From Mesotoga sp. Brook.08.105.5.1 (lineage in GTDB: Bacteria; Thermotogota; Thermotogae; Petrotogales; Kosmotogaceae), in assembly GCF_002752635.1 (NCBI RefSeq), contig NZ_AYTW01000035.1, positions 1 to 63,145 of the forward strand: DNA of 63,145 nt, given 5' to 3'. The stretch's first letter is position 1. Every line of letters begins with the position of its first letter. Below the pieces are notes generated by a model that had not been told where the DNA came from, searched no databases, and worked only from the letters and a program-made list of their open reading frames with translations. Positions 4,731 to 59,635 of the stretch are shown piece by piece. Made by a program: the position numbers and the translations under genes.

Positions 4731-5040
4731 TTCTCCCTCCTGGCGCGAAGCGTCAGCATCACCTCCCCGGATGTTCCTCCGGGCATCACTTCCTCGCGCC
4801 AGCGAGCCTCACTTCCTGCCGGAGGCAGCATCGCTTCTGAATCTTGCAACTGATTTTCGCTCTTACCAACCCCCAACCTGCAATCCCTGACCTCGGTAGT
4901 TTTTTCTCCCTCCTGGCGCGAAAGCGTCAGCATCACCTCCCCGGATGTTCCTCCGGGCATCACTTCCTCGCGCCAGCGAGCCTCACTTCCTGCCGGAGGC
5001 AGCATCACTTCTGAATCTTGCAACTGATATTCACTCTTTC
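4731..5040. repeat. Modular hairpin array, two tandem units of 174 bp
   Basis: Two near-identical units start near 4735 and 4909. In each, inverted repeats alternate with short linkers. The inverted repeats are TGGCGC...GCGTCA, CCGG...CCGG, TCGCgccaGCGA and TGCCggaGGCA. The linkers are GCATCACTTCC and GCCTCACTTCC. The same architecture recurs at 22597-22835, 31846-32196 and 59125-59290. It shows no sign of being coding. Confidence 0.85.
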
Positions 5041-7586: not shown

Positions 7587-8376
7587 GATTCACCACCAGA
7601 TATGGAAGCAGTCTCTTTTTTATCTCATCTATCCCATGTTTTAGATCGCTTCCTTCGTACATCTCTACCTTTCTTGAGAGTTTTGGGGTTCCTATCCTTA
7701 CTACTCTCGTAGGTGAACCAGTCAGACCGGTCTCCGATGGATCCATTGCAAGAGAATCGTTTCCGATTCTCTCAATGGGCGCATCTTTCGCCAGTTTCTT
7801 GCCACTCAGTGTCGGAAGTCTCGGCTCGTTAACGTCTTTTGTCACCGATATTAGTGAAGGCAGAGGGAGATTCCATATCTCTTTGCCGTCCTCTACTTCG
7901 CGTTCAACGGTAATCTCGTTATCCTCGAGATCGACTATGCTGGAAACATAGGTCGCTACCGGTATGCCCAGCATGGCTCCCGTCTCGGGTCCGACCTGCC
8001 CTGTCTCGCCGTCTGTTGCCTTTTCTCCAGCAAGGATCAGGTCAAACGGACCTTCTCTTTCCGCGAATCTCGCTAGAGCCATGGCTGTGGCCCATGTATC
8101 GGCTCCCGCAAATCTTCTGTCTGTAAGGAGAACCGCCCTGTCGGCTCCCATGGCAATCGCCTCTCTTACGGCCTCTTCTGCCACAGGAGGTCCCATAGAG
8201 ACCACGGTGATCGAATGATCACCTGCTTCCTTCAACCTCAAAGCGGTCTCCAGCGCATGAAGGTCAAGCGGATTAATAACTGTCCCAACTCCTTCTCTTA
8301 TCATCGTCCCCGTTTCGGGATTGAGCTTAACTTCATCGGTATCCGGAACTTGTTTTAGAAGAACAAGAATCTTCAA
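7579..8376 (-). CDS. etfB: Electron transfer flavoprotein beta subunit
   Basis: This is the ETF beta subunit, 265 residues, first gene of the etfB-etfA-glcD operon. It opens with the typical MKILVLLKQVPDTDEVKLNP and carries the nucleotide-binding segment GEKATDGETGQVGPETG near residue 120. In bifurcating ETFs this subunit binds an FAD that reacts with NADH; in simple ETFs it binds AMP. I cannot decide between these by eye. The gene order matches the EtfAB-linked lactate dehydrogenase of anaerobes, in which lactate oxidation by NAD+ is driven by reduced ferredoxin. Upstream is a 390-bp divergent spacer shared with the diguanylate cyclase gene. Confidence 0.93.
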   Translation of the reverse strand: MKILVLLKQVPDTDEVKLNPETGTMIREGVGTVINPLDLHALETALRLKEAGDHSITVVSMGPPVAEEAVREAIAMGADRAVLLTDRRFAGADTWATAMALARFAEREGPFDLILAGEKATDGETGQVGPETGAMLGIPVATYVSSIVDLEDNEITVEREVEDGKEIWNLPLPSLISVTKDVNEPRLPTLSGKKLAKDAPIERIGNDSLAMDPSETGLTGSPTRVVRIGTPKLSRKVEMYEGSDLKHGIDEIKKRLLPYLVVNHE

Positions 8377-21403: not shown

Positions 21404-22432
21404 GTGAAAGCCGCGTTTGTAAAATCACCATTCAAATTCGAGATCCGTGACGTAGATCTTCCCTCTCTGAAACCGAATGACGTGTTGCTTAAGATAAAGG
21501 CCTCAGGAATCTGCGGGACAGATCTTCACACAGCTAGAACGGAAGCCAAAGACTGGCAGACTTTCGGCCACGAGATAGTCGGCATTGTGGAACAGATCGG
21601 TTCAAATGTCGAAAATGTGGAAGTCGGCCAGAGCGTACTGGTAGAGAGCGGCTCCTTTTGCGGGACATGCGAGGACTGTAGAAACGGGCGAGTCGATCTC
21701 TGCCATGACAGAGCACCTAACGTCTTTATAAGAGCCGAGAGAGAAAATCTGACCATGGGCTTTGCCGAGCAGGTAATAATCGATAAACAGAATGCGGTGC
21801 CATTCGAAGGAGTTCCGTTCGAAGAAGCTTCTCTCGTCGAGCCAATGGGAGTAGCGCTCGATCTGACATACACTGTCGATCCAAAGTTCAACGATGATGT
21901 CCTTGTCGTTGGTCTTGGTCCCATAGGTCTCATGGCCGTTCAGATAGTCAAGGCCATGGGAGCGAGAAAGGTCTTCGTTGCCAATCATTCCAGATCTAAG
22001 ATAAGGATAGATGTTGCAAAGAGCTTCGGAGTGGAGGATGTCATACTCGTCGACAAAACCCCGATTGGCTCCTACAGATTTCCCAAGGGCGGCGTTGATA
22101 GAGCTCTTGTCACCGCACCTCCTTACGTAATCCCCGAAGTGCTCGATGTCATGAATTTTGGAGGAGTCGTCGGCTTCATAGGAATCGATTACGGCGAAGG
22201 CCGCTTCATAAAGTTCGATGCCAACAAGTTCCATTTCAACAAACTTCAGTTGAGAGCCTCCCACGCAGTTCCAGCTCTGTACTTCCCCAGATGCATCGAT
22301 ATGATAAAGAGCGGAGCTGTAAATGTGAAGCCTTTGATAACAGACACCTTCAAGCTGGAAGAAATCGGTGAGATGATGGTCAAGGCGGAAAATGAAAGAG
22401 ACAAAGTAATAAAGGCAGTCATGATTGATTGA
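21404..22432 (+). CDS. Zinc-dependent alcohol/polyol dehydrogenase (sorbitol dehydrogenase-like)
   Basis: This is an MDR-family dehydrogenase of 342 residues. Catalytic zinc ligands are Cys in GICGTDLH and His-Glu in FGHEIVG. The structural zinc motif is complete: CGTCEDCRNGRVDLC. The NAD-binding motif is VGLGPIGLMAVQ. GTG is the start, with GGGGGTG upstream. It is the last gene of the operon and a terminator follows 16 bp later. Relatives oxidise polyols or sugars at a secondary hydroxyl, so it could create the 2- or 3-keto group handled by the kinases or the HxlA/HxlB-like enzymes. Confidence 0.9.
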   Translation: MKAAFVKSPFKFEIRDVDLPSLKPNDVLLKIKASGICGTDLHTARTEAKDWQTFGHEIVGIVEQIGSNVENVEVGQSVLVESGSFCGTCEDCRNGRVDLCHDRAPNVFIRAERENLTMGFAEQVIIDKQNAVPFEGVPFEEASLVEPMGVALDLTYTVDPKFNDDVLVVGLGPIGLMAVQIVKAMGARKVFVANHSRSKIRIDVAKSFGVEDVILVDKTPIGSYRFPKGGVDRALVTAPPYVIPEVLDVMNFGGVVGFIGIDYGEGRFIKFDANKFHFNKLQLRASHAVPALYFPRCIDMIKSGAVNVKPLITDTFKLEEIGEMMVKAENERDKVIKAVMID

Positions 22433-22447
22433 GTATAGTCTGAACGG

Positions 22448-22475
22448 CCCGCCAAGACGGCGGGTCTTTTTCTTT
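22448..22475 (+). terminator. Terminator of the sugar operon
   Basis: CCCGCC and GGCGGG pair around an AAGAC loop, followed by TCTTTTTCTTT. It is a typical intrinsic terminator 16 bp after the dehydrogenase stop. Confidence 0.9.
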
Positions 22476-22596
22476 GAGATCAAAAAACCTTAGATGTCAG
22501 AGGTATGAGGAAAGAGGTCAGAAAACCAATATCCTTCTGAGAACTCCCACATTTCTTCATGCTAAAGTAGGAGGTGTCTTTCGATAAGAGAGAGAC

Positions 22597-22835
22597 GCAA
22601 GGCGGTGAAGAACATCTGCGGACGCAATGCACTGAGGAGCATCAGTGGACGCAAGGCTGGCGAAGACCACGCCAGGACGCAAGGCTGCCTTCGGCAGGAA
22701 GTGAGGCCCGAAAGAACATCCGGGGAAGTGATGCGGCGAAGAGCGTCGCCGGAAGTGAGGCTCGCTAGCGCGAGGAAGTGATGCCCGGAGAAACGTCCGG
22801 GGAAGTGATGCCGCTTCGCAGGAAGCAAAAAAAAA
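22597..22835. repeat. Modular hairpin array, inverted orientation
   Basis: Linkers GGACGCAATGC, GGACGCAAGGC, GGAAGTGAGGC and GGAAGTGATGC alternate with inverted repeats. The inverted repeats include CACTGaggagcatCAGTG, TGGCG...CGCCA, CTGCCttcGGCAG, GGCGaagagcgtCGCC, TCGCtagcGCGA and CCGGagaaacgtCCGG. It runs opposite to the arrays at 4731 and 31846 and has no coding character. Confidence 0.85.
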
Positions 22836-22860: not shown

Positions 22861-23282
22861 GTCCTTAGTCCTTCGTCCCAGATCATGGACCCGTCCTTCG
22901 AAAGAGCAGTTGCAAGTTGTCAAAGAACCGCTGTACGCTTAAGAGCAAAAACCCGCTGGTCGCTGATGAAAACCACGTTGCCCGTCAACGGGCCACCGCC
23001 AAGAAGACCGGTTCTTCGTTCCGACGCTACGCGTCCAGGTTGTTCGTTCTTGGAACCGGATCCCTTATCAAGTCTGGGATACAGCAAATGGTTATTCCGA
23101 AAAGGCTAGATTCCGTCATTCCGACAAAGCTCCTGGTCGGAATCTTGATGCTATTGCTTCAATGGTCCTAACCAAGAACGAAGAACAGATCCTCGCTCTG
23201 GAACGAATAACAGATTCTCCTGGTGAACGGATAACCGCTCAACGGTGAACCGGTTTCTCTTGCTCTTTCGAACCCCCAACCC
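22861..23282. repeat. 422-bp interspersed repeat, copy A
   Basis: By my count this matches 31321-31742 at all but 11 positions, with no gaps and a constant offset of 8460 bp. The copies are in the same orientation and flank the operon from 31284 to 23239. Its 3' end runs into the coding region of oppF. Small open frames are present in both copies, but 3 of 5 differences in the longest frame change the amino acid, so coding is unlikely. Confidence 0.93.
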
Positions 23283-31752: not shown

Positions 31753-32200
31753 AAAGCCCAGATCCTGAACAGGAGCGCTTCAGGATGACAGAATAGGTTC
31801 GTCCTGATCAGATTACTTTAATTTGCTTGCTATTTTTCTTTGGTTTTTGCCTCCTGGTGCGTAAGCGCCAGCATCACTTCCCCGGATGCTCTTCCGGGTA
31901 TCACTTCCTCGCGCCAGCGAGCCTCACTTCCTGGCGTAGCCAGCCTTGCATCTCATTCCGCTCTTTCGAACCCCCAACCCCGGTTCCTCCAAAGCCCAGA
32001 TCCTGAACAGGAGCACTTCAGGATGACAAAATAGATTCGTTCTGATCAGATTACTTTAATTTGCTTGCTCTTTTTCTTTGGTTTTTGCCTCCTGGTGCGT
32101 AAGCGCCAGCATCACTTCCCCGGATTCCCTTCCGGGCATCACTTCCTCGCGCCAGCGAGCCTCACTTCCTGCCGGAGGCAGCATCACTTCTGTTCTTGCT
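31753..32200. repeat. 238-bp tandem repeat containing modular hairpin arrays
   Basis: Two units starting at 31753 and 31991 share AAAGCCCAGATCCTGAACAG, TTTAATTTGCTTGCT and a hairpin array. The arrays (31846-31941 and 32086-32196) use linkers GCATCACTTCC and GCCTCACTTCC. In one equivalent slot the first unit has TGGCgtaGCCA where the second has TGCCggaGGCA: the sequence changes but the pairing is kept. Confidence 0.88.
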
Positions 32201-59056: not shown

Positions 59057-59635
59057 AGAGCAACAGGGATCGGCTGAACGCTGGGAAGAGCCACTGCCCA
59101 GAGAAGCTCTGGTAAGCAAGGCGTCGAAGAACATCGGCCGACGCAATGCACTGAGGAGCATCAGTGGACGCAAGGCTGCCCTCGGCAGGAGGCGAGGCCG
59201 ACTACGTCGGGAAGTGAGGCTCGCTGGCGCGAGGAAGTGATGCCCGGAGAAACATCCGGGGAAGTGATGCCGCTTTCAGCGGGAGGATTCAGAAGCCAGT
59301 CTTTGCTTCGCAAAGGCAAGTTCTGCTTCGCGGGCAAAGAATCCGCTTGGGCAGAAAACGCTGTACGCTGTTAAGAGAGAATAAGAGCAGCAGGAAATGA
59401 TGACGCTTTCAGCGGGAGGCTCAAGACCCCTGGATCCCGGATCAGGTCCGAAATGACTCTGAACAGGAGCCCCAAACAGCACAGTTACCCAGCAAGGATA
59501 TTGGAGATAAATAGAACAGATAGGGTGGAAGTGCTGTTCTTGCTGTTCTTTCACTTCTAGATAAATAGAAGAGCAGATAGTATAGAAGCAGGCTGGAAGC
59601 ATAAGCAAAACCCAAATGGCGCAGAAAAAGACTTC
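59057..59635. repeat. Modular hairpin array (inverted orientation) and repeat fragments
   Basis: Between 59125 and 59290, linkers of the GGACGCAATGC and GGAAGTGATGC type alternate with inverted repeats. The inverted repeats are CACTGaggagcatCAGTG, CTGCCctcGGCAG, CCGACtacGTCGG, TCGCtggcGCGA, CCGGagaaacatCCGG and CCGCtttcaGCGG. Fragments related to the 422-bp repeat follow (AACGCTGTACGCTG near 59358). No gene was seen. Confidence 0.85.

Follow-up and report, generated by a model that had tools for sequence, protein, structure and literature searches.

The window, that is, the whole 63,145-nucleotide stretch of Mesotoga sp. Brook.08.105.5.1 DNA analyzed here, contains a zinc alcohol dehydrogenase-like gene that is followed, in this order, by a terminator-like hairpin, an array of short hairpins, and a convergent gene for an oligopeptide-transporter ATPase. 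The hairpin (GGCCCGCC..GGCGGG plus a T-run; 22432..22470, + strand), which resembles an intrinsic terminator, as read from the sequence, belongs to the upstream dehydrogenase-like gene, and the array sits past it. We found that the array has nine linkers, eight inter-linker hairpins of 12, 13, 17, or 18 nt, and one terminal hairpin, which bears out the proposal of a first-pass annotation that constant linkers alternate here with different hairpins that pair. That annotation had placed the array at 22597-22835; it is present there, with bounds that we amend to 22594-22827 (+ strand). The last hairpin ends in GGAAGC, and the ends of the array coincide with a stop or change of similarity to two paralogous arrays.

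The left half of the array (22594..22697, + strand) has four GACGCAA[GT]GC linkers and the hairpins GGTGA..TCTGC, ACTGA..TCAGT, TGGCG..CGCCA, and TGCC-TTC-GGCA, in the linker/hairpin order GACGCAAGGC/ggtgaagaacatctgcg, GACGCAATGC/actgaggagcatcagtg, GACGCAAGGC/tggcgaagaccacgccag, and GACGCAAGGC/tgccttcggcag. The right half (22698..22827, + strand) has five GAAGTGA[TG]GC linkers and the hairpins CCGAA..TCCGG, GGCGA..TCGCC, TCGC-TAGC-GCGA, CCGGA..TCCGG, and the terminal CGCTTCGCAG, in the order GAAGTGAGGC/ccgaaagaacatccggg, GAAGTGATGC/ggcgaagagcgtcgccg, GAAGTGAGGC/tcgctagcgcgag, GAAGTGATGC/ccggagaaacgtccggg, and GAAGTGATGC/cgcttcgcaggaagc. The first hairpin of the array (GGTGAAGAACATCTGC) is degraded, with two mismatches.

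In the window, the linker consensus GGAMGYRAKGC is matched 21 times compared to 0.47 expected (0 of 100 shuffles), and these matches represent about six arrays at four places. The consensus as first proposed is amended by a third linker form, GGTCGCAATGC, and by a different linker, GGCCAGTC, which occurs with the same linker-and-hairpin design elsewhere in the host genome. Two of the sister arrays in the window, at 4937..5011 and 4763..4837 (both − strand), are near-copies, the former having linkers with TGCC, TCGC, and CCGG hairpins. The same three hairpins, with the terminal TGGCGCTTACGCACCA, are found at 32092..32190 (− strand), while the array at 31868..31953 (− strand) has GATGCAAGGC-TGGCTACGCCA as its module 1 in place of GAAGTGATGC-TGCCTCCGGCA, a module exchange. 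The fifth sister array, at 59140..59283 (+ strand), mixes GACGC and GAAGTG linkers and ends in the hairpin CGCTTTCAGCG. Palindromes with a CGTC/TGTC tag, consistent with the REP kind known from M. prima, adjoin arrays at window positions 23114, 31574, 31790, and 32028; they were found by a simple scan, and their loop length varies.

The arrays are almost confined to Mesotoga

We took a census of the host genome (G000; 2.99 Mb in 61 contigs) from pattern counts and sampled stretches. It contains 68 linker-hairpin-linker units of the GAAGTG type and 113 of the GACGC type, with no matches to the reversed-motif and reversed-pattern controls, respectively. Within the family, the GAAGTG type is found in the host's genus only (7 of 10 genomes), and the GACGC type is found in that genus, apart from two matches in a single genome from a different genus. 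The named relatives with arrays in a collection-wide scan were Mesotoga and one unclassified Kosmotogaceae bin, and the arrays are almost confined to the genus Mesotoga. Contigs labeled Bacteroidales or Acidobacteriota that carry Mesotoga-type arrays look misbinned, and matches in Epulonipiscium, a planctomycete, Streptomyces, and IMG/VR were rejected as unrelated tandem repeats or chance. The plasmid and phage collections that we scanned gave no matches.

Further repeats were seen in the sampled stretches. A second array family, with the linker GGCCAGTC and CTTCG-loop hairpins that have different stems, lies at 850-916 and 7819-7887 of stretch L200. In stretches L114 and L157, strings of CGGGTT units, a few bases apart, often come after GCCAGT arrays in the same order and are followed by a GAGATCCCG..CGGGATGAC palindrome.

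Hairpin stems vary while linkers and loops are nearly constant

For module anatomy, we used stretches from three genomes that were chosen mainly around GAAGTG-type pairs, and this sample is therefore biased to that type. It comprises 124 arrays with 521 linkers and 397 modules, among which there are 174 distinct hairpins. The main, 17-nt hairpin class has the form NNN-GA-RRANCR-TC-N'N'N', and the 12-nt class is mostly NNN-CTTCG-N'N'N'. In this sample the outer stem is variable while the linker and loop are near-constant; the stems are approximately 4 to 6 bp long, and their outermost pair is almost always C-G. Hairpin type is linked to linker type (1.33 bits, compared to 0.31 bits after shuffling), and common hairpins are nevertheless found with several linkers.

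The covariation across many copies that the first-pass annotation predicted is seen in both classes. In the main length classes, 87 to 97% of stem positions are paired, and pairing drops to 24 to 50% in slid controls. Paired cells make up 92.9% of the 17-nt class (71.5% when shuffled) and 97.1% of the 12-nt class (73.8% when shuffled), and the covariation scores are 0.478 for the 17-nt class (91 distinct hairpins) and 0.695 for the 12-nt class, compared to 0.110 and 0.215, respectively, in shuffles that ignore shared descent (0 of 500 shuffles each); the paired fractions likewise exceed every shuffle. Counts of pairs with two-sided changes and of pair types showed no clear excess over shuffles, so the covariation signal reflects a restricted repertoire of paired stem types. 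There are 94 distinct module orders among 134 arrays, which argues against the drift of one ancestral block as a sufficient explanation of the pattern.

Whole modules are exchanged at paralogous and orthologous loci

The first-pass annotation had read TGGCgtaGCCA and TGCCggaGGCA, in equivalent slots of different arrays, as a compensatory change. We found that the linkers preceding these hairpins differ as well (GATGCAAGGC versus GAAGTGATGC), and thus the whole module has been exchanged. The right-half block of the window array has approximately 90% identity with two paralogues in the host genome, which share its right-hand modules and differ in the left-hand ones, and in paralogues C45 and C41 other modules take the place of those in the left half. 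The number of units varies between arrays, and the modules at the ends recur without being fixed.

At orthologous loci, whole linker-plus-hairpin modules are gained, lost, or exchanged, with breakpoints in the linkers. In an orthologous pair from the host genome and sister genome G008, for example, one member has TGGCTTCGCCA as module 1 whereas the other has TGCCTCCGGCA, and the linker changes too. At the junction that holds the window array, the upstream gene is present in all of the sister species and both flanking genes in several; the array is present in the host genome and absent from G011, G008, G007, and G013, and G012 has a different array. The terminator-like hairpin is also found at sister-species loci with the same junction. 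Besides the junction of the window array, two gene ends have arrays in some sister species, while other sister species lack them. At a second gene end, two modules are common to G008 and G012 inside otherwise different arrays; both G008 copies have decayed without compensation (CAACTCCGTCGG versus CGACTCCGTCGG; GCCAAAAAGCATCAGCG versus GCCGAAAAGCATCGGCG), and neither G011 nor G007 has an array at this site. Neither a readable target duplication or clean insertion nor terminal inverted repeats were seen at the compared loci, where several repeat families make up mosaic spacers and other repeats blur the boundaries. In G008, repeat matches recur at offsets of approximately 76.3 and 86.5 kb within an apparent set of large segmental duplications (contig C1, 1.77-1.93 Mb).

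In a small set of 38 aligned orthologous modules, changes per site were 0.9% in linkers, 3.2% in stems, and 9.7% in loops. The rate of change in stems was about one-third of that in loops (Fisher p 0.002), which leaves room for some selection on the stems in place. There were 11 one-sided stem changes and 1 two-sided change, and the latter comes from the repeat-rich pairing L114/L157, which is probably not orthologous. We found no clear in-place double stem change at orthologous loci; the trustworthy stem changes are one-sided, and the idea of compensatory change in equivalent slots is not upheld.

The arrays show little sign of a site-specific RNA function

An RNA or mRNA-level function (an attenuator, a stabilizer, or a protein sponge such as a Csr-type GGA array) would be in keeping with the strong covariation, with stems that change less than loops, and with the predicted fold of the reverse-strand RNA, in which separate hairpins are joined by unpaired linkers. 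However, the orientation of arrays to neighboring genes is mixed, with none fixed; within one array, the linkers all point in the same direction. Mismatches in stems were G.T in 14 cases and A.C in 21 (p 0.31), so there is no preference for the G.U-compatible kind, and the attempt to assign an RNA strand from G.U tolerance was dropped. Fold z-scores were a modest −1.75 and −1.92, and no Rfam family matched above its gathering threshold (the best match, 13.9 bits compared to 57, lies outside the array). The mixed orientation, equal tolerance of G.T and A.C, modest folding, and lack of an Rfam family speak against the arrays acting at each site as a conserved RNA or cis-regulatory element. With the window array lying past a terminator-like hairpin, and with the same junction lacking an array in sister species, we regard a functional RNA as quite unlikely. 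A replication-strand rule was also considered for G008 (dnaA at base 65), where the two halves had 9 +/9 − and 4 +/15 − arrays after neighbors were merged and a duplicated block was dropped by hand (Fisher p 0.09); such a rule is not shown by these counts.

Neither RAYT nor IVP genes track the arrays

The first-pass annotation had suggested a search for a protein gene that always accompanies such arrays; neither of the two candidates, a RAYT transposase and an IVP gene, tracks them. In principle, a RAYT (Y1) transposase could mobilize the arrays as BIMEs. The host genome, G011, and G012 have Y1 transposases of RAYT size, and a decayed Y1 copy lies approximately 400 bp from an array on contig C16. 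In contrast, array-bearing G008 (near complete) and G007 have no Y1 match, and these arrays are missing from G006 and G009, which do have Y1 genes. The examined flanks of the two intact host-genome Y1 genes have no array linker, and an aligned upstream flank carries a different palindrome (GATCCCG..CGGGAT), so we consider mobilization by RAYT improbable.

The IVP family (PF05635, four-helix bundle) was rejected as a partner, with most IVP genes having no array nearby and the arrays of G007 and G014 occurring without an IVP match. One tandem IVP set is located inside arrays. Three tandem IVP-family genes with arrays between them occur in stretch L199 (16858-18504; host genome C8:36858-38504) and also in L113 and L156, and one tandem IVP gene is far more similar between species than the other shared genes compared, which suggests recent transfer. 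The host genome has 20 PF05635 matches, several of them in polysaccharide-type gene clusters without arrays.

A defense-type island at 36-66 kb of contig C8 in the host genome (L199-L201) contains 18 array clusters, all in one orientation (+), among genes that run both ways. Its genes encode AAA/OLD-like ATPases and Fic and, as judged by eye, AbiE-like and HEPN/MNT-like pairs.

Discussion

Taken together, we think it probable that the window array is a single copy of an interspersed repeat that is non-autonomous, specific to the genus, and built from exchangeable linker-plus-hairpin modules. Our best reading is that this repeat is of the BIME/BOX kind; it differs from the CGTC REPs known from M. 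prima. The first-pass annotation knew of no described element of this design, which is nearly true: our search, of a literature that misses most subscription journals, found no published account of such an array, but BIMEs and BOX elements, the known systems nearest to the arrays, are broadly similar mosaics of modular palindromes.

Like BIMEs, which are made of REPs, the arrays are intergenic, high-copy mosaics of palindromic units and conserved spacer motifs with a variable number of units, and the palindromes of Stenotrophomonas BIMEs are likewise preserved despite sequence change (PMC2817692). Unlike BIMEs, whose REPs alternate in orientation, the arrays have palindromes of 10 to 18 nt, one constant directed linker, and a single direction per array, and they lack a GTAG or REP head motif and a flanking RAYT. 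They also differ from the RAYT/REP system, in which a rayt gene lies between two inverted repeat copies, in that the examined flanks of the two intact host-genome Y1 genes are free of the linker. BOX elements of Streptococcus pneumoniae, which are probably parasitic, are similarly modular composites whose inner modules vary in number and kind and between strains (PMC3049150); however, boxB modules are copies of one sequence, and the terminal inverted repeats and target duplications of BOX were not seen at the array loci compared, where the boundaries are blurred. The CGTC-3 REPs described from M. prima and Kosmotoga olearia (PMC3733652) share the genus and the intergenic spaces of the arrays and adjoin them, but these REPs are mostly head-to-head dimers with one 8- to 9-bp stem opening with A-T pairs, a CGTC/TGTC tag, and a loop of 4 to 5, features that the arrays lack. 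A table in the RepRanger paper lists M. prima, with 1,814 in what we read as the REP count column (PMC12306157).

The likeness to a CRISPR array noted earlier lies in the alternation of constant and variable units and is superficial, with "spacers" that recur from a shared pool (397 modules reduce to 174 sequences) and a constant unit of 11 nt. The uniform direction of arrays among the defense-type genes of contig C8 would also suit a CRISPR-like adaptive array or a cassette array, including an attC-like recombination array. Against this, the variable units are palindromes that recur among many loci and species, orientation is mixed outside that island, and the phage and plasmid collections have no match, which leaves this reading with hardly any probability.

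Alternatively, the arrays could be passive products of replication, in which the polymerase switches templates and recombination occurs at the repeated linkers and quasi-palindrome correction matches the arms, with neither mobility nor selection. The strand symmetry of the mismatches, the duplication of modules in neighboring arrays, and the locally coherent orientation on C8 (18 clusters in 30 kb) are consistent with this account. However, dozens of unlinked sites and distant near-identical module strings require a copying mechanism, and the linkers are more conserved than the loops, so we consider purely passive origins unlikely. We give similarly tentative weight to an undescribed class of mobile element whose recognized parts would be the unpaired linker and loop, whose stem could be any paired sequence, and which a host or element enzyme would move; the linker dialects in the genus would then be GGAAGTGATGC, GGACGC/GGTCGCAATGC, and GGCCAGTC.

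For the interspersed repeat that we favor, we infer that only paired modules are copied onward, so that pairing would be kept by selection at propagation, probably acting on a single-stranded hairpin with the linker and loop as the recognized parts. Pairing might instead be restored by hairpin-templated repair during replication. Arrays would be extended and rearranged when identical linkers recombine or serve for template switching, and they would play no fixed part where they are inserted.

The arrays thus offer a natural case in which hundreds of short hairpins still pair while their sequence changes. Orthologous loci show that the apparent covariation arises from the swapping of ready-made modules, and covariation among dispersed repeats should be taken with care as a sign of RNA function. 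The arrays also provide a starting point for asking how mosaics of this kind spread when no transposase is in sight.
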